A DNA stretch of 29,046 bases, from the IMG/VR virus record IMGVR_UViG_3300048839_000409, positions 1 to 29,046 of that record; one strand, 5' to 3'. Positions within the stretch are counted from its first letter, which is position 1. Every line of letters starts with the position of its first letter. The notes below the pieces were generated by a model. It was not told the origin of the DNA and ran no database searches. It saw nothing but the letters and a program-made list of their open reading frames with translations. Both the position numbers and the translations under genes were made by a program. This document shows, in pieces, positions 3,396 to 23,700 of this stretch. The DNA comes from a virus.

Positions 3396-3407
3396 GGAGT
3401 GCCGCTG

Positions 3408-3899
3408 ATGATGCATGGCGTCGATTGGCTCGATCAAGACCTGAGTGGCTGGATCGCGTCTGAAAAGATGGATGGATGCCGCGCGTATTGGACCGGCGCG
3501 CAGCTGCTGACGAAAAGCGGCCGCGCCTACCCTTGTCCACCGGCCGATCTACTGCGCCAGCTACCGGCGCATGCGCTCGATTGTGAACTGTGGGCGCCCG
3601 GCCGGCCGCGCGCAGAATCGCTGCGCTTGGCCTCAGCGGCTGCGCTGCGCGGCGAGTGGTCCGATGCGCTACGGCTGGCGGCTTTCGATCTTCCTGAGCA
3701 TGGCGGCCCTGCCATCGATCGGCGCCGCGCGTTGGACATTCACCCGCTCGCATGCGCTTGGCGCCGCGTCGCCAGCACGGCCGATGCGCTGGCCATGCGG
3801 GCCGAAGTGTGGCGCCGCGGCGGCGAGGGAGTCATGCTGCTAGACCCGGCCGGGCGCTATCAGGCCGGGCGGCGGCCCGTGCTGCTGAAGCTGAAGTGA
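3408..3899 (+). CDS. ATP-dependent DNA ligase, adenylation domain only (truncated)
   Basis: The 163-residue product carries the nucleotidyltransferase motifs of ATP-dependent DNA ligases: motif I EKMDGCR (Lys20 as the AMP acceptor), motif III-like DCELW (Glu60) and AAFDLP (about 91-96), motif IV EGVML (Glu140) and motif V LLKLK (160-163). Ligases of this family seal nicks by adenylation of enzyme and then of the 5-prime phosphate. The protein stops exactly at motif V, so the C-terminal OB-fold domain usually present is missing and no downstream frame continues it nearby. The ATG at 3408 has GGAG at nine bases; a GTG at 3399 is an alternative. It may be a minimal ligase, need a partner, or be decaying. 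Confidence 0.8.
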   Translation: MMHGVDWLDQDLSGWIASEKMDGCRAYWTGAQLLTKSGRAYPCPPADLLRQLPAHALDCELWAPGRPRAESLRLASAAALRGEWSDALRLAAFDLPEHGGPAIDRRRALDIHPLACAWRRVASTADALAMRAEVWRRGGEGVMLLDPAGRYQAGRRPVLLKLK

Positions 3900-4002: not shown

Positions 4003-4776
4003 TTAGCCGCTGTAGAGAAGGCTGTTCCTGATATTTCGGGCCAGCGTTTGGCTCGCAATCCGGCCGGCGATTCCGTAAAAATCGAGCCGAACTCGATAGG
4101 TCACGGTCGGCACGTAGCGAAAAAGCGGGATCAGCGTGTTCCGTCGAAACGGCCCGGCCTTCTTCTCCACGCCTGAGCCTTCGGCCAGGTAGACGCCCGG
4201 AGCGAGCTTGCCACGCCTGCGGGTCACAAAGACGTATTGGCCGCCCGCCCTGCTCTGGGCCTGGATGCGCGAACGCCGCTGCCGCTTCGTGAGCTTGTAG
4301 CCCAGTTGCTTGCCGTAGCCGGCCACAAGTTGCGTGTTGGCCTGCGCGATGATCTGCTGGATCAGCCCACGCTTGACCTTGAGCGACCCATCGAGCGCAT
4401 TCTGCGTCGGAACCGCGAACCATCCGGGGGGCATCGCACCCTTACCCTGCAAGGACCGCTCAAATCGCTTGACAGAGCGATTTCCGCCGAGCACCTGGGG
4501 GGTGAGGGGGTGCTGACGATATTGCGGGTCTTTGCGCAGTTCTACAGCCGCCCGCAACAGACCGGGCTTGCGGTAGTCGGCCGGCTCCACCCGGAACGCA
4601 TTGAGCGTGTAGGCGTTGGGCCTGTTGAACACACGAAGCTCTTCCTGCCGCACAGCCTTCTGCACGTCCTGGGCGGTGCGCGTCAAGCCACGCGCCATGC
4701 CGAAGCGTTGCCGTTTGGCCTCACGCTTCAGCTCAGCACGCACTTGGCGAAATCCTGTGACCCGAACCTTGATCAT
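4003..4776 (-). CDS. Putative virion morphogenesis / minor tail protein (GpZ-like)
   Basis: The 257-residue protein starts with a beta strand and a helix rich in Lys/Arg (MIKVRVTGFRQVRAELKREA), followed by GMARGLTRTAQDVQKAVR. That pattern is typical of phage head-tail or tail-completion proteins of the lambda GpZ/HK97 gp10 kind. The middle is basic (TKRQRRSRIQAQ) and includes the PPGWFAVPTQNA segment that I associate with this family. It stands alone, with no other structural gene beside it, while the tail module is 16 kb away. The assignment rests on pattern memory and is moderate. The ribosome site is weak. Confidence 0.5.
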   Translation of the reverse strand: MIKVRVTGFRQVRAELKREAKRQRFGMARGLTRTAQDVQKAVRQEELRVFNRPNAYTLNAFRVEPADYRKPGLLRAAVELRKDPQYRQHPLTPQVLGGNRSVKRFERSLQGKGAMPPGWFAVPTQNALDGSLKVKRGLIQQIIAQANTQLVAGYGKQLGYKLTKRQRRSRIQAQSRAGGQYVFVTRRRGKLAPGVYLAEGSGVEKKAGPFRRNTLIPLFRYVPTVTYRVRLDFYGIAGRIASQTLARNIRNSLLYSG

Positions 4777-4878
4777 GCGGCCATGATAGCCACAATCCTT
4801 CCCACCCCGAACACCCCAAAGCCAAAAAGTCTCCGGGGTGCTACTAAGTTGTTGATTCGTATAGCTTTTTCTGTTTTA

Positions 4879-5008
4879 TACCCCATACCCCTAACCAAAC
4901 AAGTCCATACAAACATCTGTATAGTAGATAAAGATATATCTTATGTATAGTACACAATACAGAAGCTGGGGAGAACTGAAAACCCCGTTTTGTTCGGGGT
5001 ATGGGGTA
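4879..5008. repeat. 13-bp perfect inverted repeat around AT-rich core
   Basis: The left arm TACCCCATACCCC (4879-4891) and right arm GGGGTATGGGGTA (4996-5008) are exact reverse complements. The 104-bp core contains GATATATCTTATGTATAG-type AT-rich sequence, suited to duplex melting. Confidence 0.9.
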
Positions 5009-5047
5009 TTTTTCATCTTAAGTGTTTGATTCATAAGGCTTTTTTCG

Positions 5048-5065
5048 TACCCCGTATGCGGGGTA
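5048..5065. other. Hairpin with TACCCCG arms
   Basis: TACCCCG (5048-5054) and CGGGGTA (5059-5065) are perfect complements around a four-base loop. A further ACCCCGTA follows at 5071, just before the -35 box. It is probably an operator or iteron pair rather than a terminator, since no T-run follows. Confidence 0.7.
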
Positions 5066-5078
5066 AAAGCACCCCGTA

Positions 5079-5106
5079 TTGACAAGTCTCTTATCCACAG
5101 TACACT
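5079..5106 (+). promoter_or_regulatory. Promoter with a perfect DnaA box in the spacer
   Basis: TTGACA (5079-5084), a 16-bp spacer and TACACT (5101-5106) form a sigma70-type promoter reading to the gene at 5131. The DnaA consensus TTATCCACA (5091-5099) lies inside the spacer, so host DnaA binding could block or time this transcription. This promoter lacks the TGAC-N6-GTCA dyad of the other promoters. Confidence 0.6.
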
Positions 5107-5130
5107 TCTCACTTCACAACTGGAGCTGAA

Positions 5131-5457
5131 ATGAACCGCAAAGAGGCTGCAATGCTCGGAAAGAGCAAATACAACACGGGTCAACCGTGCAAGAACGGTC
5201 ACTTCTCAGACCGCTATACACTGAACGGAATTTGTGTGGCGTGCGCGAGTTCCTACCAGAAGCGCGCCTATTCCGACATACGGCGGGCTCGCAACGAAGC
5301 TCGCTTTGGCCCCGCCGCCCAGCCGCTGACCACACCCCGCGTCGCCATCCGGCAGGAACTGCTCGGTCCGGTCGAGTCGCTGCTGCAAGCCCTGATGCGC
5401 CATGACCCCCGGGCCACGAACCTGCTGGCCCTGTGGACCACTGGAGGCGCCAAGTGA
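5131..5457 (+). CDS. Small zinc-binding protein (108 aa)
   Basis: The ATG at 5131 has GGAG five bases upstream. The N-terminal 45 residues hold a treble-clef-like metal site: CKNGHF with Cys20 and His23, then ICVAC (CxxC) near residues 35-38, preceded by YNTGQP. The same C-NGH...CVxC arrangement occurs at the N-terminus of phage HNH and endonuclease VII-like proteins, but no nuclease domain follows here. The rest is a helical region ending ALWTTGGAK. It probably binds nucleic acid. Its stop overlaps the next start (GTGA), so the three plus-strand genes to 6289 form one operon. Confidence 0.65.
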   Translation: MNRKEAAMLGKSKYNTGQPCKNGHFSDRYTLNGICVACASSYQKRAYSDIRRARNEARFGPAAQPLTTPRVAIRQELLGPVESLLQALMRHDPRATNLLALWTTGGAK

Positions 5458-6330: not shown

Positions 6331-6523
6331 ATTTGGTCAGCTCCAGCACATGCGCCCACAGTTGCGCCTCGGCCTCAGCCCTGGTCGCACCGCCCCGCAG
6401 CGCGACGTAATAGTCAGCCCTAATGCTGTGGACGCAGGCCCCGCCACCGCGGCGGTGCGGGAAGTGGTATCCGCCACAGCCACACTTGAGCCGTTGGTTT
6501 CGCTTCCATCGCTTGCTACCCAT
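6329..6523 (-). CDS. Small Cys/His-rich protein (64 aa)
   Basis: The ATG (6521-6523) overlaps the stop of the primase-helicase gene by eight bases, which suggests coupled translation. The product has a possible metal site, CGCGGYHFPHRRGGGACVH, with three cysteines and three histidines within 20 residues. It then has an Arg/Glu-rich helix (ATRAEAEAQLWAHVLEL). I recall no named family. It is probably a nucleic-acid-binding accessory of the replication operon. Confidence 0.55.
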   Translation of the reverse strand: MGSKRWKRNQRLKCGCGGYHFPHRRGGGACVHSIRADYYVALRGGATRAEAEAQLWAHVLELTK

Positions 6524-8906
6524 GGCCGGCCTTCAGAATCGCGCCGATCTGCGCATTGGTGTATGTCTTGGCCACCTCGGCCGGGCTCGTGATGCTCGCG
6601 GCCGGTGAGCCCAGTTTGACGTAGAGCCGCGGCTTGCCACCGTCAGGCATCACATCGTTGTTGACCCGGCCGCCGCTGAGCGCTGGGTGCCAGTCGTAGC
6701 CGAGGCCCTGCATGAGCCCACGCCTCTTGTTGATTGGGATGCCGCCCTTGTTGATCCGGTCCAGCAGGCGATCCAGTTGGATGCTGCTGACCCAGCCGCC
6801 GCGGAAGCCGCTGACGCCCTGCTCGATGGCCTCAAGCACCTCTTGCTCCACGCTGCCCATGCCGAACTCAATGGCCTCGGTGGTGCTGCTTGTGTCGGGT
6901 GCTCGCTGGCATCCGGTCGCAGGGTTGAACTCGTCGGGGATCGGCAGCGTCCACAGCAGCTCACTCACGATCGCGGCACCGTCCGCCTTGTACCAGGCGT
7001 AGAGCTGCTGGAAGTAGTTGCCACCCATGCCGTCGCGCGCCAAGTCCTCGCGGTTCTGCTGTGCGGTGTAGAACGGGGCAAAGCGTCGATCGTTGCGCGT
7101 CTTGATCAACCCGTCCTTGTGGTTCGAGTTGAACACGAAGTTGCAGCAAATCTCGGTGCTGATCTGATCCTCGCCCTTCTTCTGGATTTCGTAGCCGGCA
7201 CCAGCTGTGATCATCGGCTTCAGCTCTTCGATCACATCCACCGTCACGTTGCCACGCTTGATGTGAATATCTTCAACCAGTATCGCGGTGGTGCCGCAGA
7301 GCCAGTGGTTGAACGGACTGGCGAGCTGGCTTGCCTTGGGCCAGTGCACATAGCGCGGGCCGATGGCCGAGGCCACCGCTAGGCTCAGTAGTGTCTTGCC
7401 GTTGCCCTCGACGCCCTGAAACAGTGGAGCCCATTGGAATTTCACGCCCTGGTGCTGGACGCAGGCGGCCAGGTAGTAGAGAGCGATGTTGCGGTCACGC
7501 TCATTGGGCAGCAGCTTCGTCAGGTGCCGCAGGAATGGCCCAGCGTCACCCGTCTTGCGCGGCACCTCGACCGGCACCCACATATTGACGCGCACCCGCC
7601 CGGCCTCTTGGATCAGCGCGCCGGCCGGCTTGGTGGGCATGAAGCACACCGAATCTGCGACTGGGCGGCGCAGCACCTGGCTCTCGGTGAAGGCTTCCCA
7701 GGCGTTGCGCGTGGTGCGCTCGTTCATCGCATCCATGGCGAAGGTGTAGCCGCCATAGATCACCTTGAAGCGATCCTGATTGCGCAGATAGCCGCCTGGT
7801 ACCAGAACCTTGTTCAAGTCGGTGACGTACACGCAGCCCTTGAAGAACTCGACTTGCGCACCGGGCGGCAGGAACGTCCCACCCTGTACCTCGCGCTGCT
7901 CCGGTTCAGCAACAGCCTCGCCCTGCTGTGTGGCCACCGCTGCCGCTGGCAGCTCGATAGGCTTGTCGCGCAGCACCTCGCGCTGCATGCGGCAGGCGCT
8001 CATGATGGTGCGGTCGCGCAGGTAATCACTCCGATCGTCCCACTTGTCGCGCACCAGGGCCGAGCGGCGCATCAGGCGCTCCATGCGCTCGCAGTCCCTG
8101 CCCGTCCAGAATGCCAGGTGCTGAGCGAGGGCAGCATCGGCGCTGCTGCGGTCGTACACATCGCCCGATCCGCTGGGGTACGCCTGGGCCAGCACCGCCT
8201 CGTCAGCCTGCCACAGATCGCGGAACGTGGCGCCCTTGCCGAACACGCTTTTGGCGCTCTGCGATGCCAGCGCGCGACGCAGCAGCTCTTCATCATCAGT
8301 CGGCCCGTGCCAGTCCTCAGACGGGCCTTCCGACCAGTCAGCCGGCGTGCCGGCCACGGCCACCTTGGCCGGGAAATAGTGGGCCACCAGCGTGCCGAGC
8401 GCTGCGGTGCAGTCCGTGGCTGCTGAGCCCATGGCGCCCGTTCCAGTCAGCGCCACAAAGCGCTTCCTGGTGTAGAACTCAAGGCCCAATGGGACGTTCT
8501 TGCAGCCGTGCTCGGGCGCGCGGCCGGTGCCGAATATGTGCAGCCCGCGGCCCGACTGGCTCACCTCCACCGCAGCACCAGGGAACATGGCGCACAGTTG
8601 CTGCGACACAACGCTCCAGCCGTCAGGCGTCAAGCAGTCGTCAATGTCGAGGAACCAAAACGGGTCGGCCTCGGTAAACGCGAAGCCCAGGCAATAGCCG
8701 TGGCCCCAGGCTTGCACCGTGGCCAGCGCGGTCGCTGCGTCCAGCCAGTTGTTAGGGTCATGCGCGTCAACGCCAACTTTGCCCGCATAGACGTTGCACG
8801 GCAGCTTGTCGGTCTTGCCCGGCTTGTCAGCCTTCGGCACCAGCTTGCACACCAGAAACTGTCGATACGCACCAAGCGGCGCCAGCGCTTCAGGTAGCGC
8901 CTGCAT
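6516..8906 (-). CDS. Primase-polymerase / DNA helicase fusion protein
   Basis: The 796-residue protein has an N-terminal archaeo-eukaryotic primase (PrimPol-like) domain. The metal-binding pair is in FLDIDD (Asp87, Asp89) and a second motif, SQSGRGLHI (about 116-124), precedes the catalytic-site strand. The C-terminal half has an SF3/D5-like helicase core with Walker A GVEGNGKT (about 497-504), Walker B-like ILVEDIH (about 541-547) and an arginine-finger region NDRRFAPF. Such proteins prime and unwind DNA at phage forks; the NrS-1 phage protein is the known model. It is the second gene after the TetR-like gene and starts two bases past its stop. Confidence 0.88.
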   Translation of the reverse strand: MQALPEALAPLGAYRQFLVCKLVPKADKPGKTDKLPCNVYAGKVGVDAHDPNNWLDAATALATVQAWGHGYCLGFAFTEADPFWFLDIDDCLTPDGWSVVSQQLCAMFPGAAVEVSQSGRGLHIFGTGRAPEHGCKNVPLGLEFYTRKRFVALTGTGAMGSAATDCTAALGTLVAHYFPAKVAVAGTPADWSEGPSEDWHGPTDDEELLRRALASQSAKSVFGKGATFRDLWQADEAVLAQAYPSGSGDVYDRSSADAALAQHLAFWTGRDCERMERLMRRSALVRDKWDDRSDYLRDRTIMSACRMQREVLRDKPIELPAAAVATQQGEAVAEPEQREVQGGTFLPPGAQVEFFKGCVYVTDLNKVLVPGGYLRNQDRFKVIYGGYTFAMDAMNERTTRNAWEAFTESQVLRRPVADSVCFMPTKPAGALIQEAGRVRVNMWVPVEVPRKTGDAGPFLRHLTKLLPNERDRNIALYYLAACVQHQGVKFQWAPLFQGVEGNGKTLLSLAVASAIGPRYVHWPKASQLASPFNHWLCGTTAILVEDIHIKRGNVTVDVIEELKPMITAGAGYEIQKKGEDQISTEICCNFVFNSNHKDGLIKTRNDRRFAPFYTAQQNREDLARDGMGGNYFQQLYAWYKADGAAIVSELLWTLPIPDEFNPATGCQRAPDTSSTTEAIEFGMGSVEQEVLEAIEQGVSGFRGGWVSSIQLDRLLDRINKGGIPINKRRGLMQGLGYDWHPALSGGRVNNDVMPDGGKPRLYVKLGSPAASITSPAEVAKTYTNAQIGAILKAGHG

Positions 8907-8908
8907 TG

Positions 8909-9217
8909 TCAGCGCACGCTGGCCAGGGCGCGGGCGCGCAGTTCGGCCGGTGCCTTCAGCGCTTGCTTGTCACCGAGCACGATGCCCTGTGCGATCAGCT
9001 TCAGGCACTCGTCACGCACCGCGGCGCGCATCACGTCGCGGCGCAACTGGGCCATGGTGGTGAAGTATTTGTTCACGCTGGCCGGGCTGATGCCGGCCTC
9101 GTCGGCCACCTGGGCGCGTGTGAATGTGGTCAAGCCGCAGATGGCTGCGACTTTGAGAGCGGCTTGAAGAATTTCGGCCTTGCGCTCTTTGGGGGCCATG
9201 CGGGTGTATGTGCTCAT
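8909..9217 (-). CDS. Short TetR-like helix-turn-helix regulator (102 aa)
   Basis: Residues about 10-60 fit the TetR N-terminal domain: AEILQAALKVAAICG, then FTRAQVADEAGISPASVNKYF, which is the helix-turn-helix. The usual ligand-binding and dimerisation domain is missing, since the protein has only about 40 further residues. The ATG at 9217 has no ribosome site, and the predicted -10 box (9225-9230) lies only seven bases from it, so the mRNA may be leaderless. A second ATG at 9199 gives MAPKERKAEIL. The promoter carries a dyad shared with four other starts, so I infer a phage regulator acting on itself and on the replication genes. Confidence 0.75.
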   Translation of the reverse strand: MSTYTRMAPKERKAEILQAALKVAAICGLTTFTRAQVADEAGISPASVNKYFTTMAQLRRDVMRAAVRDECLKLIAQGIVLGDKQALKAPAELRARALASVR

Positions 9218-11522: not shown

Positions 11523-11810
11523 TCAACCTATTCCGGAGCCGTCGCCGTCGCCGTAGCCGTCGCCGTAGCCGTCGCCGTAGCCGTCGCCGTCGCCGGAGCC
11601 GGAGCCGGAGCCGTAGCCGTAGCCGTAGCCGTAGCCGGAGCCGGAGCCGTAGCCGTAGCCGTAGCCGTAGCCGTCGCCGTAGCCGTCGCCGGAGCCGTAG
11701 CCGGAGCCGTAGCCGGAGCCGTAGCCGGAGCCGGAGCCGTCGCCGGAGCCGTCGCCGGAGCCGTCGCCGTAGCCGGAGCCGTCGCCGTCAACAAAACGGC
11801 GCTTAGCCAC
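11523..11810 (-). CDS. Gly-(Tyr/Asp/Ser) dipeptide repeat protein (95 aa)
   Basis: The GTG at 11810 opens VAKRRFVDGDGSGYGDG, with GGAGAG at a suitable distance, and the frame stays open to a stop just before the VRR-NUC start. After about residue 8 the protein is a long run of Gly-X dipeptides with X=Tyr, Asp or Ser, from a hexamer array. Glycine is always encoded by GGC and X by TAC, GAC or TCC. The start is within the end of the preceding gene (8-base overlap). I recall comparable GYGSGD proteins next to DUF6948 genes in other phages, which supports coding. Low-complexity condensate-type or adhesive roles are speculation. Confidence 0.6.
   Translation of the reverse strand: MAKRRFVDGDGSGYGDGSGDGSGDGSGSGYGSGYGSGYGSGDGYGDGYGYGYGYGSGSGYGYGYGYGSGSGSGDGDGYGDGYGDGYGDGDGSGIG
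11530..11790. repeat. Hexanucleotide repeat array (GCCGTC/GCCGTA/GCCGGA)
   Basis: More than 40 consecutive hexamers begin GCCG and end TC, TA or GA. The three types are mixed in an irregular order, with some double or triple runs. On the minus strand the three hexamers read GlyAsp, GlyTyr and GlySer. Variation is limited to codon positions that change only the second residue of each dipeptide, consistent with hexamer-scale expansion plus selection for the coding pattern. Confidence 0.95.
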
Positions 11811-12213: not shown

Positions 12214-13887
12214 CTATTCGCTAATGACAGTCGCGTCAACTACTTTCGCACGTTCCAAATCAGCCTGTATCTTTTCGCGCAACTCGTCGGCCTCACGACT
12301 GCCGAGCGCGCATGCGGTGGCCACATCCACCCCGTAGCGGAAATAGAACCGCCGATAACTCTCCGTGGTGCCGCGACCCTGTTCGTGCTGCCAGCCTGCC
12401 CATAGCGCGATCGCTGAGCGCAGTTGCCCCTGGTGTTGCTGCCGCTCAATGTGGTTTTTCCGCGCAGCTAGTTGGGCGACGTGCGGCACGCCTTGCGGAA
12501 TCAGCGCCTGACCGTCCACCCTGGCGATTTCGCCGCGCAGCTTAGCGAGCACTGCCGGGTCAAGCTCAGTCAGATCGCCGTCCACACGATCCGGGCCTGA
12601 GCGATCAGCCGGCACCGGCATGTGACCGCACTCAGGGCAGCACGTCAGTACGCGCTCGTAGACGTTAGCGCACGGCACATCGTCCGGGCCGACGAAAAGG
12701 CATGTCCGCGTCGGAATCACATCGCTCGGTGCGCTGCGGCTCTTGCGCTCGCGGCGGTTCAGGCTCCACTCACGCGGGGCGTCGGGGAGGCCGTGGCGAG
12801 CCACATTACCAACGTGGTCGATGATCCAGCCGTATTGCTTACCGGGGGCTTTGGTCAGCGGCCGATTGAACTGCTGCACATAGAGGCCGTAACTAGCAGT
12901 CGGTCGCATCATGCTCATAACCTCCATGCCTGGCACATTCACACCTTCGCCATAGAGGTCAACGTTGACCAGTTGCAGCACGTCCCGCGCCTTGTAGCGC
13001 CGCATGATCGTTGAGCGAAGCCCTGCGGGGGTCTTGCCGGTCACAACTTCGGCGGGTACATCTTGCTTGCGGAATGCTTCGGCAGTTTCTACAGCTGCGT
13101 CCACGTCAACGCAGAAGGTCATGCCTCGCAAGCCCATGCATCTACGCTTGTACTCTGAAACAGCGTCACCTACGATGCGACTTGACTTGTGGACAGCCTT
13201 GCGAACCTGTTCCGGGTTGAAATCGCCTGACGCGGCAATCTTCACTTCACTCAAGTCAACGTCGCTCGGTGAGCACACGATTCGATAATCGGCGATGTAG
13301 TCTCGATCTATCAAATCGCGCGAAGATGGTCCGACATGCATGCGCTCAATCAGGCCATCAGCGTGTAACCCCAAACCTTTGCCATCGGCGCGCAGCGGGG
13401 TCGCCGTCAGCGCGGCAATCTTGGCTGAGGCGGGCAGTAGCGATGTTGCGCGGCCCCACAAATTTTCACGCAGGAGGTGGTGCCCTTCATCGACCAGTGC
13501 CAAGCCAATCGTGGCCAGCCATGGGTCGCGCGGATCAATGCCAGCCAATGTGTTCACACTGGCGATGGCCACTCGGGCGCCCTGGTCAATGTAGTTGACA
13601 CCGAGTTGCTCTAGATGCTCAACCACACACTCGCGTCGCAAAGCGTCGGAACCGATCACTCGATGCCTGATCCCTTCGGTTGCTAAGGCTGCTGACGCTT
13701 GTGACAACAGTTCAGTACGGTGCGCGATGACCACAGATGGCTTACCGAAGCGGCGGATCAGGTTCGCCATGACAACCGTTTTACCCGAGCGTGCAGGCAG
13801 CACCAACATGACCGAGCGAACCTCGGCCCAATTGTTCAGTGCAAAGTCGATCGCTTCGACTTGATAGTCACGAAGATTCGGGGTCAT
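12214..13887 (-). CDS. SF2 DEAD/DEAH-box helicase with zinc-ribbon C-terminus (557 aa)
   Basis: Conserved blocks in order: the Q-like RDYQVEAID (6-14), Walker A LPARSGKT (30-37), AHRTELL (motif Ia), DEGHH (133-137, motif II), TATP (161-164, motif III), and QQFNRPLTKAPGK (motif VI). The DHVGNVARHGLPD segment is followed by a Cys-rich zinc site with CxxxxxxxxC near residue 390 and CCPECG near 417. The C-terminal part has the VDGDLTELDP segment of phage helicases. It would unwind or remodel DNA in replication or recombination. Walker A has ARS where most relatives have TGS. It overlaps the HNH stop by 20 bases. Confidence 0.88.
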   Translation of the reverse strand: MTPNLRDYQVEAIDFALNNWAEVRSVMLVLPARSGKTVVMANLIRRFGKPSVVIAHRTELLSQASAALATEGIRHRVIGSDALRRECVVEHLEQLGVNYIDQGARVAIASVNTLAGIDPRDPWLATIGLALVDEGHHLLRENLWGRATSLLPASAKIAALTATPLRADGKGLGLHADGLIERMHVGPSSRDLIDRDYIADYRIVCSPSDVDLSEVKIAASGDFNPEQVRKAVHKSSRIVGDAVSEYKRRCMGLRGMTFCVDVDAAVETAEAFRKQDVPAEVVTGKTPAGLRSTIMRRYKARDVLQLVNVDLYGEGVNVPGMEVMSMMRPTASYGLYVQQFNRPLTKAPGKQYGWIIDHVGNVARHGLPDAPREWSLNRRERKSRSAPSDVIPTRTCLFVGPDDVPCANVYERVLTCCPECGHMPVPADRSGPDRVDGDLTELDPAVLAKLRGEIARVDGQALIPQGVPHVAQLAARKNHIERQQHQGQLRSAIALWAGWQHEQGRGTTESYRRFYFRYGVDVATACALGSREADELREKIQADLERAKVVDATVISE

Positions 13888-14618: not shown

Positions 14619-15485
14619 ATGGACAACTTCACCGCACAACTCACCGTGAACAGCGCGATCATCACGATCAACACCAACACGCTCTCTGAGCTGACCGAGT
14701 TCGTTGAGCGCATCACCGCTGGCCCCAAGCAGGTCGAACTGTCGTTCGAGGACCGCCCCGATGTGGGCGCCCCGGAAGCCCCGCCGCTGCCGCCCACTGT
14801 GATGATCGAGCAGGCCACGGCGGCGCTGGCGTTTGGTGGAGCCCCCATGACCCCCGAGCAGATGGTCGCAGCACACCCCGCTGCGCCCGAGCTGCCGGGC
14901 CTGCCGGCTGATCTGCTGACCCCGCCCGCCGTCTCGGCCGATGTGGACAGCGCCGGCGTGCGCTGGGACGCCCGCATCCACAGTTCCACCAAGACCAAGG
15001 TGGCAAACGGCGAATGGCGCGCTCGCAAGGGTGCCGACCCGGCCCTGGTCGAACAGGTGCTGGCTGAGCAGAAGCAACTGGCTGCGCTGCCGGCTGCGCC
15101 TGCTGTCCCGGTGGCTGCGCCTGCTGTCCCGGTGGCTGCGCCTGCTGTCCCGGTGGCTGCGCCTGCTGTCCCGGTGGCTGCGCCTGCTGTCCCGGTGACT
15201 GCGCCTGCTGTCCCGGTGGCTGCGCCTGCTGTCCCGGTGACTGCGCCTGCTGTCCCGGTGGCTGCGCCTGCTGTCCCGGTGACTGCGCCTGCTGTGACCA
15301 AGTTCTCCGAGCTGTGCGATTGGCTCAACGGCCCGATGCTGGCCGTGCCGCCGAAGCTGAGCATGGACGATGTGGTCGCCGAGCTGAGCAAGCACGGCAT
15401 GAAGCAACTGCAAGACCTGATGATGCGCCAGGACTATGTGCCTGTCGTTCACCAGGGCCTGTCGGCACTCGTGGCCGGTCGCTGA
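14619..15485 (+). CDS. Recombination-operon protein with AAPAVPV repeat (288 aa)
   Basis: The first gene of the plus operon. The N-terminal 75 residues (QLTVNSAIITINTNTLSEL...) hold several beta strands. Then comes a Pro/Ala-rich linker, a conserved GVRWDARIHSSTKTKVANG module (about residues 110-130) with Trp and Lys, and a second linker of nine perfect heptapeptides AAPAVPV/TAPAVPV (21-bp units, 15093-15281) plus a partial copy. A C-terminal helical domain follows. I recall the WDARIHSS module beside DUF2800-type genes in other phages, without a known function. The start is chosen because it lies after the promoter. Confidence 0.7.
   Translation: MDNFTAQLTVNSAIITINTNTLSELTEFVERITAGPKQVELSFEDRPDVGAPEAPPLPPTVMIEQATAALAFGGAPMTPEQMVAAHPAAPELPGLPADLLTPPAVSADVDSAGVRWDARIHSSTKTKVANGEWRARKGADPALVEQVLAEQKQLAALPAAPAVPVAAPAVPVAAPAVPVAAPAVPVAAPAVPVTAPAVPVAAPAVPVTAPAVPVAAPAVPVTAPAVTKFSELCDWLNGPMLAVPPKLSMDDVVAELSKHGMKQLQDLMMRQDYVPVVHQGLSALVAGR
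15093..15296. repeat. 21-bp in-frame tandem repeat (AAPAVPV codons)
   Basis: Nine complete 21-bp units (GCTGCGCCTGCTGTCCCGGTG, differing only by the first base G or A) run from 15093 to 15281 and a partial tenth ends at 15296. The first-base change makes the unit start with Ala or Thr. The order is five Ala units, then Thr, Ala, Thr, Ala, Thr, so the 3-prime half has alternated through duplication of a two-unit block. Confidence 0.95.
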
Positions 15486-15488
15486 GCC

Positions 15489-16607
15489 ATGAGCGGCGCC
15501 CACGCAATCTTGGCCCCATCCAGCGCCGCTCGCACCGTCCAGTGCGACGGCTCTGTGGTGATGCAGCAACAGCACCCTGATCAGGGCGATGACACCGCGG
15601 CGCTGGAAGGTGAGGCGGCCCATTGGGTGCTGACCGACTGCGTGCTGGAAGGCGTGATTATTGAGGTCGGTGACGAGGCGCCCAATGGCGTGCGCGTCAC
15701 GTCCGAAATGATCACCGGGGCCGATCTGATGCTGCGCGACATTGTGGCCACGCTCGGCCCAGAGTGGCGCAGCTTGATCCGCATCGAGCAGCGCCTGCCG
15801 CCCGTGGTGACGCTGCATCCCGAGAACTGGGGCACGCCTGATGTGTACGCAGTCGTCGGCAACACGATCCATGTGTGGGACTACAAGTACGGCTACGGCT
15901 ACGTCGAGGTGTACGAAAACTGGCAGCTGATCAACTACTTCGCGCTGATCTTCTTGGCGCTGGGTCTGCATGATTGCGCTGTCAAGTTCACCATCGTGCA
16001 ACCGCGCAGCTATGGTCCCGAGGGTCCAGTCAGGCGCTGGGCAACCACAGCGGTTGCGTTGCGGGCGCATGTCAATGTGTTGCGCAATAGCTACGGTGCT
16101 GCGCTCGGCCCACAGCCCCGCCTGCGTGTCGGACCTGAGTGCGACCACTGCTCGGCCCGGCACGCTTGCCCAGAGCTGTTGCGGGCCGGTGCGCGCGCCG
16201 CCGACTATGTGCGCGGACCCCAGCCGTTCGATCTGTCACCGGCCGCGCTCGGTCGTGAGCTGACCCTGATGCGACAAACCGCTGAACTGATCAAGGCTCG
16301 CCAGTCAGGGCTCGAAGAGCAGGCGCTGCGTGCAATCAGGGCTGGTGCACAGGTGCCGGGCTATGCGGTTGGCCACGGCTCTGGCCGCCAGGCGTGGACG
16401 AAGCCTGCGGCTGCGGTGATCAACACCGGCAAGATGCTGGGTCTGGACATTGCCAAGCCGATCGAGCCGTTGACCCCCAAGCAGGCCATCGCACGCGGCA
16501 TGCCCGAGTCGCTGGTCGAATCCATGTCAACCACACCTGTCGGCGAGGCGAAGCTGATCGAAGAGGATCGCTCGCTGGCTGCGCGGGTGTTTGGCAAAAC
16601 TAATTGA
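15489..16607 (+). CDS. DUF2800 PD-(D/E)XK nuclease (372 aa)
   Basis: The protein opens with APSSAARTVQC and an EGEAAHWVLTD helix, then GTPDVYAV (Asp118), WDYKYGYG (Asp131 and Lys133) and NWQLINYFALI, which together match the PD-(D/E)XK core of the DUF2800 family. A CDHCSARHACPEL segment (about 218-230) fits the conserved four-cysteine region of the related Cas4/RecB-type nucleases. The family pairs with DUF2815 ssDNA-binding proteins and a phage polymerase in replication modules. The start is three bases after the preceding stop, and the enzyme would process DNA ends in recombination. Confidence 0.8.
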   Translation: MSGAHAILAPSSAARTVQCDGSVVMQQQHPDQGDDTAALEGEAAHWVLTDCVLEGVIIEVGDEAPNGVRVTSEMITGADLMLRDIVATLGPEWRSLIRIEQRLPPVVTLHPENWGTPDVYAVVGNTIHVWDYKYGYGYVEVYENWQLINYFALIFLALGLHDCAVKFTIVQPRSYGPEGPVRRWATTAVALRAHVNVLRNSYGAALGPQPRLRVGPECDHCSARHACPELLRAGARAADYVRGPQPFDLSPAALGRELTLMRQTAELIKARQSGLEEQALRAIRAGAQVPGYAVGHGSGRQAWTKPAAAVINTGKMLGLDIAKPIEPLTPKQAIARGMPESLVESMSTTPVGEAKLIEEDRSLAARVFGKTN

Positions 16608-17571: not shown

Positions 17572-17590
17572 GCCGTTTGCCCAAGAGCAC

Positions 17591-17623
17591 GCCCCCGATG
17601 CCTAGCGGCGACGGGGGCTTTCT
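17591..17623 (+). terminator. Intrinsic terminator (moderate)
   Basis: GCCCCCG (17591-17597) pairs with CGGGGGC (17612-17618), with an inner GCC-TAGC-GGC stem, followed by TTTCTATT. It lies 20 bases after the ssDNA-binding protein stop. The downstream genes are then reached by read-through. Confidence 0.65.
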
Positions 17624-17648
17624 ATTCTCAACAATGAAGGTGCGCACC

Positions 17649-17831
17649 ATGCGACTGTTCAAACTGTTCACCCGCCCGACTCACGGTGAAATGATCGCCC
17701 GCGAACTCGACGTAGCCCGCTGCGTGCTGCTGCGCTGGCAGGCGAACGCTGAAGCTGCGAACTACTCGGTGATGATGCTGCAAGAGCGCATCCAGCGCCT
17801 TGAGCAAATGCAGCGCGACGAGGTTAATTGA
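17649..17831 (+). CDS. Small coiled-coil protein (60 aa)
   Basis: The ATG at 17649 has AAGGTG upstream, and earlier starts in this frame would fall in the terminator. The product (MRLFKLFTRPTHGEMIAREL) ends in a helix with heptad-like Leu/Met spacing (MMLQERIQRLEQMQRDEVN). No domain is recognised. It resembles small phage proteins that lie between a terminator and the polymerase. Function unknown. Confidence 0.55.
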   Translation: MRLFKLFTRPTHGEMIARELDVARCVLLRWQANAEAANYSVMMLQERIQRLEQMQRDEVN

Positions 17832-17856
17832 CGCCACCAACAACCGAAAGGAAATC

Positions 17857-18177
17857 ATGATCAGCAGCGGAAAATTCAAAAGATTTGCGGCGATTGCCGC
17901 AGCGATGGCTGCATTTGCTCCGGCGATGCACCAAGGTGCCGTCAGCGTCGCCACCGAGGCCCAGCAATCCAAGGCGCCAGGTGCGCATCCGAGCGGCAAG
18001 GCTCTGGGCCTCAAGGAAGCCGCGAAGCGCAAGATCGAGGGCGCATTCTTTGGCGGCCACAGCAGCCGCGCCGGCGGCCGTACATTCCCTGGCTACGGCT
18101 GGTCCGTCGCGCACGACCGCCGCCAGGCGAAGAAGCGCCGCAACCAGGCCCGTAACCGCCGTGCGCAGCGCGGCTGA
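17857..18177 (+). CDS. Small basic protein with a hydrophobic N-terminal segment (106 aa)
   Basis: The ATG at 17857 has GAAAGGAAAT upstream. The N-terminus MISSGKFKRFAAIAAAMAAF is positively charged and then Ala-rich, as in a signal peptide, and could be a membrane or secreted segment. The C-terminal third (RRQAKKRRNQARNRRAQRG) is highly basic and fits nucleic-acid binding. The middle has YGWSVAHDRRQ. No family is recognised. It is followed nine bases later by the polymerase, with which it probably shares a transcript. Confidence 0.6.
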   Translation: MISSGKFKRFAAIAAAMAAFAPAMHQGAVSVATEAQQSKAPGAHPSGKALGLKEAAKRKIEGAFFGGHSSRAGGRTFPGYGWSVAHDRRQAKKRRNQARNRRAQRG

Positions 18178-18186
18178 AAGGGCAGC

Positions 18187-20190
18187 ATGCAAGTGTGGCC
18201 ACCGCTCCCACCGAAGCCCGAAGCCGAGTTCGATACCGAGTGCTACCCGAACTATTGGTTGCTCAAGGCGTGGCCGGCCGGCAGCTCAATGCGGTCCTGG
18301 CGGCTTCTAGCTGGTGAGCGGTTCACCCAGCATCAGGTCGCCGAGATTCAAACATTCTTCGGCACGCACACGGTCTACAGCTTCAACGGCTTGGGCTATG
18401 ACAACTGGATGATCGGCTATGCGCTTAGCGGCGCCACGCCCGAAGAGCTGAAGGTGATCAACGATCGCATCATCGTGGACGGCATCAAGCCCTGGGAGCT
18501 TGGCCTGCCGCGGTGGGAGCCTGCTGATCACATTGATCTGCGCGAGGTTGCGCCAGGTGACGGCTCACAGAAGCTCTATGCCGGCCGCATGCACAGCAAG
18601 ACCATGCGCGATCTGCCGTATGAGCCCGGCACGGTGCTGACGGATGAGCAGATCACCAACGTGGACGCCTACTGCGGCAATGACCTGGCCGTGCTGCGTG
18701 AGCTGAAAGAAGCCCTGCGCTCACCCGTCAAGCAGCGCGCGTCACTGGGTCAGCGCTACGGGCTGGAGCTGCGCAGCAAGTCGGATGCACAGGTCGCGGA
18801 GGCCGTGCTGCGCAAACGGTGCGAGATTGCCCTGGGCCGACGCATCTACACGCCTGACGTGGACTGGAATTTCTGCTTCAAATTCCGCGTACCAGGCTTC
18901 ATCAGCTTTGAGTTGCCGCAGTTGCGGCACGCGCTCAGCATTGTGCGTGACGCTGTGTTTCGCCTGGGCGGCAGCGGCAACGTCGAAATTCCGGATGACC
19001 TTGAAGGGCTTCAGGTCACGATCGGTCACACCACCTACAAGATGGGCGTTGGTGGCCTGCACAGCCAAGAGCAGCGCCTTGTGGTGCGCAGCGATGACCG
19101 CACAGTCATCCTCATGCCCGATGTGGCCAGCTACTACCCGCGCCTGATCCTCAATTCGGGCGAGTATCCGCCCGCGCTGGGCGAAGCGTTTGCCAAAGAG
19201 TATGAGTCGATCATCGAGGAACGACTGGCGAACAAGGCCCTGGCCAAGAAGCTCAAGCATGTTGGCGGCCCCGAGTACGAGGATGCCGTCACGGGCGACG
19301 CTGGCGGCAAGATCATGATCAACGGCACGTTCGGCAAGACCGGATCGGCCTTCAGCGTGCTGTTCGCGCCGACCATGCTGATCCAGACCACGCTGAGCGG
19401 CCAGTTTTCGCTGCTGATGCTGATCGAGTGGCTGGAGCTGAACGGCATCCCGGTCGTGTCGGCCAACACGGACGGCATTGTGCTGGCATGCCCGCGCGAC
19501 AAGCGGCACGCGGCCGAGTGGTTGATCGACCAGTGGCAGACGCGCACCGGCCTGACCATGGAGACTGAGGAATACGTGGCGCTCTATGCGCGCGATGTGA
19601 ATTCCTACTTCGCCATCAAGAGCCCTGACGATGTGAAGCGCAAGGGTGAATATGCGCTGTCCGGTCTGATGGCGAAGAAGAACCCTGACGTTGAAATTTG
19701 CTCGGACGCTGTGGCCGAGTTCCTGGCCAAAGGCACGCCGCTGCTGGTCACACTCGCCGGGTGCCGCGACATTCGCAAGTTTGTCACCATCCAGAAGGTC
19801 ACAGGCGGCGGCGTCAAAATGTGGGGTGACGGGCCGCGCAAGACCGATAAGGTGCGTGACATGATTCCTCGTATCGAAGCTCACGGCTGGGCCAAAGAGG
19901 GTCGCAAATGGCGCAATGGTGATCAGTTGCTGGACGCCCAGGCGGCCTACGCCAGCACCTACGCCCCACAGACGCCAGAATATCTCGGCAAGGTCGTGCG
20001 CTGGTACTACAGCACCCGCGCGCCTGGCCCGATCGTCTACGCCAAGCGCAACGCTGTGGTCAGCTTGTCTTACGGTGCTAAGCCGTGCATGACGCTACCC
20101 GATGAGTTCCCGCAGGACATTGACTATGCGTGGTATCTACGCAAATGCAACTCGATCCTGAACGACATTGGCTGGCAACCCCACGTTTGA
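18187..20190 (+). CDS. Family B DNA polymerase (phage type, 667 aa)
   Basis: Exonuclease motifs: Exo I FDTECY (Asp16, Glu18), Exo II NGLGYDN (67-73) and Exo III YCGNDLAVL (about 160-168). Polymerase motifs: A PDVASYYPRL (about 310-319), B KIMINGTFGK (about 375-384) and C ANTDGI (about 425-430). Motif C reads NTD where canonical PolB has DTD, but the second Asp, needed for metal binding, is kept. At 667 residues it is short. It should be the replicative polymerase. With the PrimPol-helicase and SSB it forms the replication set. AAAGGG gives a strong ribosome site. Confidence 0.9.
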   Translation: MQVWPPLPPKPEAEFDTECYPNYWLLKAWPAGSSMRSWRLLAGERFTQHQVAEIQTFFGTHTVYSFNGLGYDNWMIGYALSGATPEELKVINDRIIVDGIKPWELGLPRWEPADHIDLREVAPGDGSQKLYAGRMHSKTMRDLPYEPGTVLTDEQITNVDAYCGNDLAVLRELKEALRSPVKQRASLGQRYGLELRSKSDAQVAEAVLRKRCEIALGRRIYTPDVDWNFCFKFRVPGFISFELPQLRHALSIVRDAVFRLGGSGNVEIPDDLEGLQVTIGHTTYKMGVGGLHSQEQRLVVRSDDRTVILMPDVASYYPRLILNSGEYPPALGEAFAKEYESIIEERLANKALAKKLKHVGGPEYEDAVTGDAGGKIMINGTFGKTGSAFSVLFAPTMLIQTTLSGQFSLLMLIEWLELNGIPVVSANTDGIVLACPRDKRHAAEWLIDQWQTRTGLTMETEEYVALYARDVNSYFAIKSPDDVKRKGEYALSGLMAKKNPDVEICSDAVAEFLAKGTPLLVTLAGCRDIRKFVTIQKVTGGGVKMWGDGPRKTDKVRDMIPRIEAHGWAKEGRKWRNGDQLLDAQAAYASTYAPQTPEYLGKVVRWYYSTRAPGPIVYAKRNAVVSLSYGAKPCMTLPDEFPQDIDYAWYLRKCNSILNDIGWQPHV

Positions 20191-20193
20191 CAC

Positions 20194-20222
20194 TTGACGC
20201 GCTTCTAACGGTTTACTAATCT
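20194..20222 (+). promoter_or_regulatory. Possible promoter before the small membrane gene
   Basis: TTGACG (20194-20199) with a 17-bp spacer gives the weak -10 TAATCT (20217-20222). A second TTGACA lies at 20187-20192. The shared dyad (20225-20238) begins immediately after the -10 box, so here the site would block the start rather than the -35 box. Confidence 0.45.
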
Positions 20223-20224
20223 AG

Positions 20225-20238
20225 TGACTAACCCGTCA
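20225..20238. promoter_or_regulatory. Shared operator dyad TGAC-N6-GTCA
   Basis: TGAC (20225-20228) and GTCA (20235-20238) with outer TAG and CCA. The full match TAGTGAC-N6-GTCACCA is an almost perfect inverted repeat, the most symmetric of the five copies. It lies at the expected transcription start of the gene at 20252. Confidence 0.65.
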
Positions 20239-20251
20239 CCAAGGAAAAGTC

Positions 20252-20350
20252 ATGTTGAAGCGCGTCATTAGCTTCGTCGCTGTGAAGCTGATCGAAGCCG
20301 CCCTGATTGTCACGTCTATGGTGCTGGGGCTTCAGGCCATACTATCGTGA
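20252..20350 (+). CDS. Small single-pass membrane protein (32 aa)
   Basis: The ATG at 20252 has AAGGAAAAGT upstream. The product is MLKRVISFVAVKLIEAALIV plus TSMVLGLQAILS: a basic N-terminus followed by a long hydrophobic helix, as in phage single-helix membrane peptides. Its last 35 bases overlap, on the opposite strand, the end of the tail-fibre chaperone gene. The promoter and operator ahead of it suggest that it is expressed with the replication regulon, though it lies at the edge of the tail module. Function unknown. Confidence 0.6.
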   Translation: MLKRVISFVAVKLIEAALIVTSMVLGLQAILS

Positions 20351-20711
20351 CTGGGAACCCTTCCTGTTCCGGCACGTCACGCAGGGCCTGCCGGTAAGCC
20401 GCCCACACTTCGGGCACAGCCTCGGCGCGCTCGATCGCCCGAGTGACGATCCAGTCCGTTTCCGCAAGCAGGCGGTCACGCTTGGCGCGCGCTTCGTTGT
20501 CGCGGTCCTCGTCGCTGCGCGTATCGTGCCATTCCAGAGCCCCAGCTGCGTAGCGCAGTTGAGCCCCAAGGTGCGGCTGCGTAGGCCAATGCTCAAACGG
20601 CTCGTTCAGGCCGCCGCAGGCGTGGTCAACTGGGGGCTGACTGTCCATGCCTTCAGTCAGGCACAGCACGTCCCCATTGGTCAGGCTGTAGATGCAGTGT
20701 GTGAAGATCAT
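20316..20711 (-). CDS. Tail-fibre/tail assembly chaperone-like protein (131 aa)
   Basis: The ATG (20709-20711) overlaps the stop of the J-like gene as ATGA, which sets the start; longer upstream frames lie in that gene. The C-terminal half has RDRLLAETDWIVTRAIERAE, WAAYRQALRDVPEQ and FPVTIVWPE, a pattern widely found in phage tail-assembly (APC/tail-fibre chaperone) proteins. The N-terminal part is unusual (HCIYSLTNGDVLCL). It probably helps fold or attach the tip protein. It ends the minus-strand tail operon within this window. Confidence 0.7.
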   Translation of the reverse strand: MIFTHCIYSLTNGDVLCLTEGMDSQPPVDHACGGLNEPFEHWPTQPHLGAQLRYAAGALEWHDTRSDEDRDNEARAKRDRLLAETDWIVTRAIERAEAVPEVWAAYRQALRDVPEQEGFPVTIVWPEAPAP

Positions 20712-23700
20712 GGTGGTCCAGATCCAAAAGAGCCGTAGCCCGATCGGGTGATGGTGGCGGTGAGGCCGTTGGCATCGGTCACAGTGCAGACCGCCGTGAC
20801 GCCGATGCCGCAGTTGGAGGCGCCGCGGCCAAGGAAATTGCAACTGGCACCGCTGGCGCTGATGCCGGCCCAGTCGCCGGCAGCCGGCGCACCAGACACG
20901 ATGCTGCTGGATGCGAGTGACCACTGGTAGGTATAGGGGGCCGTGCCGCCGCTGGCGCTGGCCGTGCTGCTGCCAATGACCCGCGTGATCGTGCTGCTGG
21001 TGGCCCAGCTGGTGCTGCTGGGCGAGCCAGCGCTGACCGTGACCACATTCAACTTCAGCTCCAGTGCGCTGCCGGTCCAGCGCATGTACTGCGTGCTGCT
21101 GCCGATGCTGAATTTGTACGCCCCGCCGCTGTAGCCGAGGAAGAACCCGGTGCCGCTGGCGTAATCGGTCTGGCCGCCTCGGACGTGGCCGCTGGTCGTC
21201 ACGTTAAGTGCCCCGACAGTACCGCTCGGGGCACTGAATGACCCGCTGAAGGTGGCCACACCGCCCGACACGATCATGCCCGGCATGGTCATGTTGCCAT
21301 TGGCGCTGACCTCAAACCAGTTGCCGTCTGTGTAGTTGCCCAGGCGCAGAGCTGACGACGATAGGTAGAAGCCGGTGCCGCCCGAGGCCGGCCAGTTTCC
21401 GTCTACGAACGAACCGCCGAGCAGGATGCCGCTCTTGATGGTCAGGTTCGACCCATCCCATATCAGCGACTTCGTGCCAGCCACACCAATGCTGAGCTTG
21501 TACGTTCCCGCGTCATAGCCGAGCCAGAAGCCCGTACCGCTGTTGTAGGCCGTCTGGCCGCCTCGGACGTGGCCGCTGGTGCCCACATCCACACTGGGGG
21601 TCGTCAGCGCTGCGCTGCGCAGCGTCAACGTTGAACCGCTCCACAGAAGCGCCGAACCGCCAGCCGTGCCGATGCTGAAGCGGTAGGCCCCGCTCGAATA
21701 GCCGAGGTAGAAGCCGGTTCCAGTGTCATAGGACGTCTGGCCACCTCGGATGTAGCCCGAGGTGTCGAGCGTGATATTGCCCGCGGTGATCGCGCCCATG
21801 TTGGCGCTGATCGCGCTCAACGAACCCACCTTCAACGTGCTCAGGTAGGGCGCATTCCAGATCGTCTCGTTCGTGACCGGGTTGTAGATGCCGTCAGTCT
21901 GGTACGTCGATTCCCCCGCCACCAGCACCGGCACCGCGCCTGACCAGCCGTTTGCTGACCAGCTCCCGTTCGGCGGATAGCTGGTGCTGCCGGACGTGGT
22001 AACAGTGCCGCTGCCGAGGCTGGTAAGCGTGGTCTTGGCGTAGGCTGTACGGTAGCTTGCCCCCTGAGCGCCGTCAGCACCGGGCGCGCCGTCCGCACCA
22101 TCAGCCCCAGCGCTGCCTGCGTAGCCTCGCGCCGTGATGCTGCCGAAGCTGAAATTGGTCGTGGCCACGCCTGCCGACTCGATCAGCGTGGCCGATGGGG
22201 TGGCGGCCCACAGCGTATAGCCTGGGCTCGGAGATGTGCCTGGGGTCAGCGACCAGCCGGCCGGCGCAGCACCAAAGCCGCCCGTGGCCCAGGTATAGGT
22301 GAACGTGCCGGCCGGCGCTGCCGGAATGGTCACAGCCCACTGGTACACCGTTGGTTGCGCGCTTTGCAGGCCAGCCTCGCCGTTGGCAGCAATAGCCGCC
22401 ACAGTTGATGAACCTGGCCACGTCACCGAGGTGGAAACCGCGTCAGCCACTGCAGTGATCGACTGCTCAGCCCTCCACAGTTGCAGGCCCGGAGTGCCAG
22501 GGTTGGCAGGGACAGCAATGCTCCAGCCCGATCCACTGAATGCCGAATGCGCCGCGCTGGCCCATGTGTAAGTGCTAGACCCGGACGGTGCGGCTGCCGC
22601 TGTGGTTGCCCACTGGTACAGCGTGACCGTCGCCACTTTGTTGCCGCTGGCACCATCGGCACCATCGGCACCATCGGCACCATCGGCACCATCAGCACCA
22701 TCAGCACCATCAGCACCATCAGCACCATCGGCACCAGATGCTCCAACCCGAGCTTTTGCGATCGAGTAGATTTTTTCGAGCGTGGGGCCACCGCTGACCG
22801 CGGCGACCAGGGTGGCCGTGCCGCTGTCGGCGCTCATGCTCGAGGGGGCGTAGACGCCCGTGCTGGCGTCGATATTGGTGTGCACGCCGCTCTGGGTGGT
22901 GCGGCCGTAGCTCACGCCACTGGTAAGCCTCTGAGCGCCGCGATAGACCATCATCGTGCCACCGGCGCCAGCAAAGCTGGCCACATTGCCAGCGGCATCG
23001 GCCTGCACCACGGCAGACTCGTTGGTCAGCAGGGCCACATAACTGTCAGAGCCATCGCGCACCTTGGCCACGGTGATGGTATCGACCAGCCCGTCCCAAG
23101 TGACCTGGATGGTGGCGGTCTCTGACGCCAGGCCGGCATAGCTCAGCGCGCGGCTGTTGCCGGTGCCGGTGAGCGTGGCTGTGCCGGCCACCACAGCGAA
23201 CGCCGGACTGCCGGCCAGCGACAGCCCGGTGGCGCTGAAGGTGATGCTGCTGGGCGAGGCCGCGCCCGCCTGGTCGACCCGGAAAATCTGGCTGCTGGCC
23301 GACAGCAGCAGACTGCGGCCCGGCGCGCCATCGACTCCAGTCGGTCCAGTAGCCCCAGTCGGTCCAGTGGCCCCAGTCGGTCCAGTGGCCCCGGTTGCCC
23401 CAGCCTTGCTCTTGCTGATCTGGATGCGACGCTCAAGCGTCGGGTAATCAACGCGGGTTGCCGTAACGTCCACATGGCTCAGGTCCGTGCCAGCCGTCAG
23501 CGCTGTGATCGTCAGCGTGCCGCCCACCAGGGTGCTCGTCGCACCAGCTCCGTCACTCTTTGAAAGCACCCAGTCAGCGGTAACGTCTGCGCCACCAGAC
23601 ATAACGCGAATTGTGCTTGTCGCCCCGGAGTAGCTGGTCACAGCGCCGTCTGCCCCGGCAGGCAAGACAAACGCAACCGTGGACGACTCGATCAGCAGCG

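Follow-up and report, generated by a model that had tools for sequence, protein, structure and literature searches.

The question raised by this locus is what function lies in a 354-bp, AT-rich gap of a tailed phage, from which a late operon runs leftward and a short operon rightward. The window, i.e., the whole stretch of DNA analysed, comprises all 29,046 bases of an IMG/VR virus record and has no end repeats. It is a fragment of a tailed-phage genome, neither a plasmid nor a chromosome, with a replication module and with tail genes running leftward from 20708. Among phage records, megablast found no close nucleotide relatives and blastn only a match to one DUF2493 gene; an Rfam search of the window gave no match. 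An earlier sequence-only reading had described the gap as an origin-like region with iterated motifs, an inverted repeat and a DnaA box. The gap may well be an iteron-type origin of a tailed phage, with the phage primase-helicase reading it through its C-terminal domain and IHF bending it; the probability of this explanation is estimated at about 0.6.

The composition of the gap sets it apart. Its GC content is 43%, compared with about 63% in the surroundings, in line with the AT-richness described before. It is not clearly the only long non-coding gap of the window, as had been claimed, since 20191-20707 and 17572-18186 also have no assigned gene. ACCCC/GGGGT words occur 11 times in the gap and 47 times in the entire window; the next densest 354-bp stretch has four. 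Dinucleotide shuffles of the gap contained 1.5 words on average, and 11 were reached in none of 2000. Clustered short non-coding repeats beyond chance, as in iteron arrays, are thus present, and the words are kept in relatives. The previously reported minimum of seven ACCCC(G/A)T words holds for the looser forms (11 ACCCC/GGGGT, 10 ACCCC(G/A)), but the strict form occurs only five times. The 13-bp inverted repeat is perfect even over 14 bp (4878-4891 and 4996-5009). Further dyads are ACCCC-N9-GGGGT (4982-5000) and TACCCCGTATGCGGGGTA. Words are arranged in four blocks (Table 1), with 5 bp between the GGGGT of block I and the first IHF-type site to its right. The adjacent AT-rich stretch of an iteron origin is represented by the core, which is only moderately AT-rich (68%) and lies inside a region of 63% GC.

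Table 1. Features of the gap, its neighbours and the replication module, in window coordinates
Feature	Position	Strand	Remarks
Minor tail/tail-completion protein	4003-4776	-	First leftward late gene; phrog_1924
Intergenic module, origin-like word array	4777-5130	.	Between leftward late gene and rightward short operon
Block I	4804-4839	.	ACCCC 4804-4808, ACCCC 4813-4817, GGGGT 4835-4839
IHF-type site 1, TAAGTTGTTGATT	4845-4857	-	Consensus WATCAANNNNTTR on minus strand
Block II, tandem words ACCCCATACCCC	4880-4891	+	Starts exactly 22 bp past IHF-type site 1
AT-rich core, candidate unwinding element	4892-4981	.	68% AT
Block III	4982-5007	.	ACCCC 4982-4986 and inverted tandem words GGGGTATGGGGT 4996-5007
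IHF-type site 2, TAAGTGTTTGATT	5019-5031	-	IHF consensus on minus strand
Block IV	5048-5075	.	Palindrome TACCCCGTATGCGGGGTA 5048-5065 and ACCCC 5071-5075 beside the -35 box
Sigma-70-like promoter TTGACA-16-TACACT	5079-5106	+	Toward zinc gene; TTGACA 5079-5084, TACACT 5101-5106
TTATCCACA, DnaA-box consensus	5091-5099	+	Sole exact copy in window
Zinc-module protein	5131-5457	+	phrog_1081 type; motif R..A...G...Y....PC..GH...R...G.C..C
PrimPol/SF3-type primase-helicase	6516-8906	-	phrog_1829, NrS-1-type HBD, DUF5906; proposed initiator
Primase-helicase C-terminal domain, proposed word reader	6519-6869	-	Residues 680-796; KPRL at 758-761
TetR-N-like protein	8909-9217	-	Replication module
Helicase	12214-13887	-	Replication module
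DUF2800 exonuclease	15489-16607	+	Replication module
DNA polymerase	18187-20190	+	Replication module

Two perfect IHF-type sites in the gap were absent from the sequence-only reading. Both positions have the 13-mer TAAGTnnTTGATT, which matches the IHF consensus WATCAANNNNTTR when read on the opposite strand. In 28 representative gaps the consensus was seen 20 times, a 60-fold excess over the 0.32 predicted from the remaining sequence of the loci; shuffles of these gaps had a mean of 0.89 and a maximum of 5. The middle four bases (N4) differ between phages and both halves are kept, as expected of IHF. At the sequence level both putative sites of the window fit this pattern. The distance to the words is also constrained: of 45 sites, 19 are followed at 20-23 bp by the start of an ACCCC word, 13 of them at exactly 22 bp, compared with 1.06 for random placement; as some of the loci are near-duplicates, the independent cases are fewer.

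Phages sharing the primase (45-53% identity) have Klebsiella, Acinetobacter, Edwardsiella, Pectobacterium and Stenotrophomonas as hosts. Each cultured relative has the same gap, located where a leftward late operon starts opposite a counter-oriented short gene. Observed and expected ACCCC words in the six cultured relatives were 8/1.65, 6/0.66, 4/0.69, 9/0.85, 5/0.70 and 5/0.89. A gap of the same build is present in dozens of IMG/VR phages; searching IMG/VR with an alignment of the primase yielded 80 loci. Delimiting gaps by the zinc gene alone gave 49 gaps in 28 clusters. Among all 5-mers, ACCCC was the most enriched in these clusters (137 versus 24 expected), and the top 6-mers were ACCCCG and GGGGTA. 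This is an unbiased rediscovery of the word noticed in the window. The gaps of relatives are AT-richer than their own loci; ACCCC words are few in some of them. A single genome-contig locus carries the zinc gene, and the array is present in its gap.

The arrangement of the words is conserved as well. In 7 of 52 gaps, including that of the window, a tandem word pair is separated from an inverted tandem pair by a core of roughly 100 bp; this order was seen nowhere else in 1.32 Mb. This test took the place of word orientation around the computed AT maximum, which was uninformative because the maximum is ill-defined. In locus L074 the gap is a near-perfect dyad, and each of its word pairs has an IHF site 21-22 bp further out. 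Comparison with relatives hence showed motifs kept in position and syntax, which supports the origin-like character first proposed. GC skew in seven (near-)complete relatives had no consistent turn at the gap and thus gives neither support for an origin nor a clean refutation. The contig G001 (L103/L104/L004) has a 127-bp end overlap and is probably a complete 41-kb genome; there the primase is 12 kb from the gap, and the gene of the terminase small subunit (TerS), the gap and the zinc gene are still together despite this distance.

A conserved word array requires a reader. DnaA had been considered, as its perfect box TTATCCACA does lie within the 16-bp spacer of the TTGACA promoter. The proposed coupling of host replication to the operon was not borne out: only one of 28 gap clusters has the box, and TTATNCACA is no more frequent than in shuffles. 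A DnaA-dependent, oriC-type origin was rejected since the box is private to the window phage. A promoter like that of the window is found at the same place in several relatives.

The covariation of words and proteins points to the primase-helicase, an enzyme of the NrS-1 PrimPol/SF3 type. For 43-44 gaps, word spectra were compared with protein identity. Word similarity correlated with the identity of primase residues 676-765 (r = 0.36; 0.42 without close pairs), but not with the PrimPol domain or most of the helicase (both about 0) or the zinc protein (-0.01). Controlling for the remainder of the primase left a partial correlation of 0.33, which was reached in none of 1000 permutations (p about 0.001), a value that is optimistic since the loci share ancestry. 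A second primase stretch, residues 541-630, also correlates with the words (0.28). The 3' end of the primase-helicase gene is 1.4 kb from the gap with other genes in between. The zinc gene is nearer, so that joint transfer of neighbours does not explain the covariation. The primase-helicase therefore probably reads the words.

The word itself changes within the group. ACCGG-type words are present in L060, L062 and L065, ACCTC-type words in L081 and 11 copies of TTATGAT in L070, which is without the otherwise nearly invariant GRVNN of the primase. Residue 760 of the primase follows the word type. Arginine or lysine at this position is accompanied by at least three ACCCC words in 32 of 34 loci, glutamine, valine or isoleucine in one of nine; the lone exception is phage B2 with the extended word ACCCCAAGTAC. 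The residue was chosen after viewing the first locus set. In 16 held-out loci from two further scans, at least three words were found in 6 of 11 with a basic residue and in none of 5 with a non-basic residue; this p-value of 0.058 is borderline and, given shared ancestry, optimistic. The rule has the same direction in the held-out set and is looser in distant relatives.

The AlphaFold2 model of the C-terminal domain (pLDDT 87) has helices followed by a hairpin, in a helix-helix-wing order that is winged-helix-like. A Foldseek search of the PDB gave nothing significant; the best E-value was 1.3, and winged-helix folds were among the weak matches. The C-terminal domain is probably the reader of the ACCCC words as judged from covariation, and a better candidate than the zinc or the HTH protein. 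The NrS-1 primase recognises the template word TTTGGTTA (PMC8718748). It occurs once in the window (4892-4899, minus strand), inside the gap and beside block II. As a meaningful site it was dismissed: only 2 of 28 gap clusters have it, and its presence is probably due to chance. A short TetR_N-only protein is encoded directly before the primase in the window, KpV52, B2, Geezett and Scuro. It is a small, conserved partner of the enzyme and might bind DNA in an accessory role.

An unlikely explanation is a transcription control region without origin function, in which words and IHF sites would serve as operators for switching between the late and the short operon. The gap heads the late operon, divergent from the short gene, in the relatives examined, and the TTGACA promoter of the window abuts the last word. 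IHF-bent promoters are common. However, the covariation points to a replication enzyme and to no regulator, and the array stays when the counter-oriented gene changes or is missing and when the late-side gene varies. Of 32 loci, 25 have TerS on the late side; elsewhere the neighbour is a tail-completion protein (window, L005, L067, L074), a ParB-like protein (L044, L048) or another, all with the array kept. Both functions may coexist, as the palindrome and the word of block IV lie directly beside the -35 box.

The frequency of TerS beside the gap raised the possibility of a packaging site (cosB/pac), with the words as TerS sites and IHF bending the DNA. In lambda cosB (R3-IHF-R2), which lies upstream of terS, repeats flank an IHF site, and the inverted words of the gap are placed around an IHF-type site in a similar way. 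In contrast to cosB, the gap has an AT-rich core and a two-sided array. The same array is found alongside three unrelated large terminases (GpA, Terminase_6 and Terminase_3), remains beside the tail-completion and other genes listed above, and in G008/L067 TerL is beyond the tail-completion gene. The G001 contig self-closes in its tail region and not at the gap. Membership in cosB/pac was rejected, as the array is linked to no cognate terminase and TerS is sometimes non-adjacent; a packaging function is quite improbable. In L067 and L074, whose gaps adjoin neither a zinc gene nor TerS, the arrays consist of 9 and 13 words, respectively. The persistence of the array with three terminase types, and without zinc gene or TerS, indicates a site in its own right.

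That the zinc-module protein binds the iterons as an initiator or autoregulator is very improbable. Its gene adjoins the gap in about 50 loci and a relative precedes replication genes elsewhere, but its identity does not follow the words (r = -0.01), zinc modules in unrelated phages have no accompanying words and strong arrays exist without it. It is a usual, not an obligatory partner. The related gene is found in phiV10-type phages (L099 2492-2692; L100 2492-2701) just before DnaT-like and lambda-P-like genes. Neither Pfam nor NCBIfam contains a model for the zinc module, phrog_1081, which is repeated four to five times in B2 and G001; the fold of the protein was modelled confidently and had no match in the PDB. 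The sequence-only reading named both a zinc and an HTH protein as the first downstream genes and as candidate iteron binders. Both genes are present, but the zinc protein comes first and the HTH protein second. The HTH candidate found no support either: its gene has no PHROG match.

The nearest described analogue of the gap is the PICI/P4-type origin. PICI origins consist of an AT-rich region flanked by two iteron sets (PMC6092414). The word sets at 4880-4891 and 4996-5007 around 4892-4981 have this arrangement. Unlike the pri-rep-ori order of PICI/SaPI, the gap is not immediately 3' of a rep gene and not in a PICI element; the window is from a tailed phage with its own DNA polymerase, fixed-spacing IHF-type sites and other words. 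The alpha protein of P4 binds origin repeats via a C-terminal winged helix and primes, and ORF904 of pRN1 also carries a C-terminal winged helix (PMC4234260). The likeness to P4 ori/crr and alpha is a primase-helicase whose C-terminal domain is proposed to read origin repeats. The enzymes differ: the P4 primase is of the Toprim type, whereas that of the window is PrimPol-type and NrS-1-like, with a C-terminal domain that has no significant structural match. Origins of the iteron plasmids pSC101 and R6K gamma combine iterons, an IHF site, an AT-rich stretch and an inverted repeat at the adjacent promoter. The gap has words, IHF-type sites, an AT-rich stretch and an inverted repeat by the promoter, but the window phage is without a plasmid-type Rep, and its DnaA box is unconserved in the phage group.

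For the iteron-type origin, we infer origin function, binding, bending, melting, initiation and promoter control as follows. The primase-helicase would bind the ACCCC words with its winged-helix-like C-terminal domain. Host IHF would bend the DNA at one or two sites. The bend would set block I against block II, which starts two helical turns from the bend site. Words flanking the AT-rich core would let the primase-helicase load and melt the core, and the enzyme would prime the melted DNA for the phage DNA polymerase. The primase-helicase may in addition throttle the adjacent operon through the palindrome, which touches the TTGACA promoter.

A full-text search of open-access papers found no described origin in this phage group. 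The odds are about even that the gap represents a hitherto undescribed origin class, common to a large tailed-phage clade whose virion modules are unrelated, and defined by two-sided words, IHF sites 22 bp off and a coevolving PrimPol-helicase domain. Within this class, word and domain appear to coevolve: a basic residue 760 is paired with ACCCC and glutamine with ACCGG-type words. If this is true, the origin is located and the initiator named for a group that includes Jedunavirus, Yokohamavirus and Peatvirus, and a single primase-helicase plus IHF drives this origin type. The group would then provide a natural series of matched word/domain pairs for decoding DNA recognition by a protein, and origins of uncultured phages would be findable by sequence alone.

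Other elements were observed in the gap and the window. A TTGTGGC/TGTGGC word is enriched near the late-gene start in several relatives (at about 4787-4795 in the window); TGTGGC was found there in 9 of 28 gap clusters and is possibly part of the late promoter. An ATP-dependent DNA ligase-like ORF at 3405-3899 is seemingly short (164 aa) and convergent with the tail-completion gene. Tandem arrays are located at 67-193 (27-bp units), 11533-11788 (6 bp), 15092-15295 (21 bp) and 22649-22736 (9 bp). The 21-bp array has 97% matching copies and lies immediately left of the DUF2800 gene.
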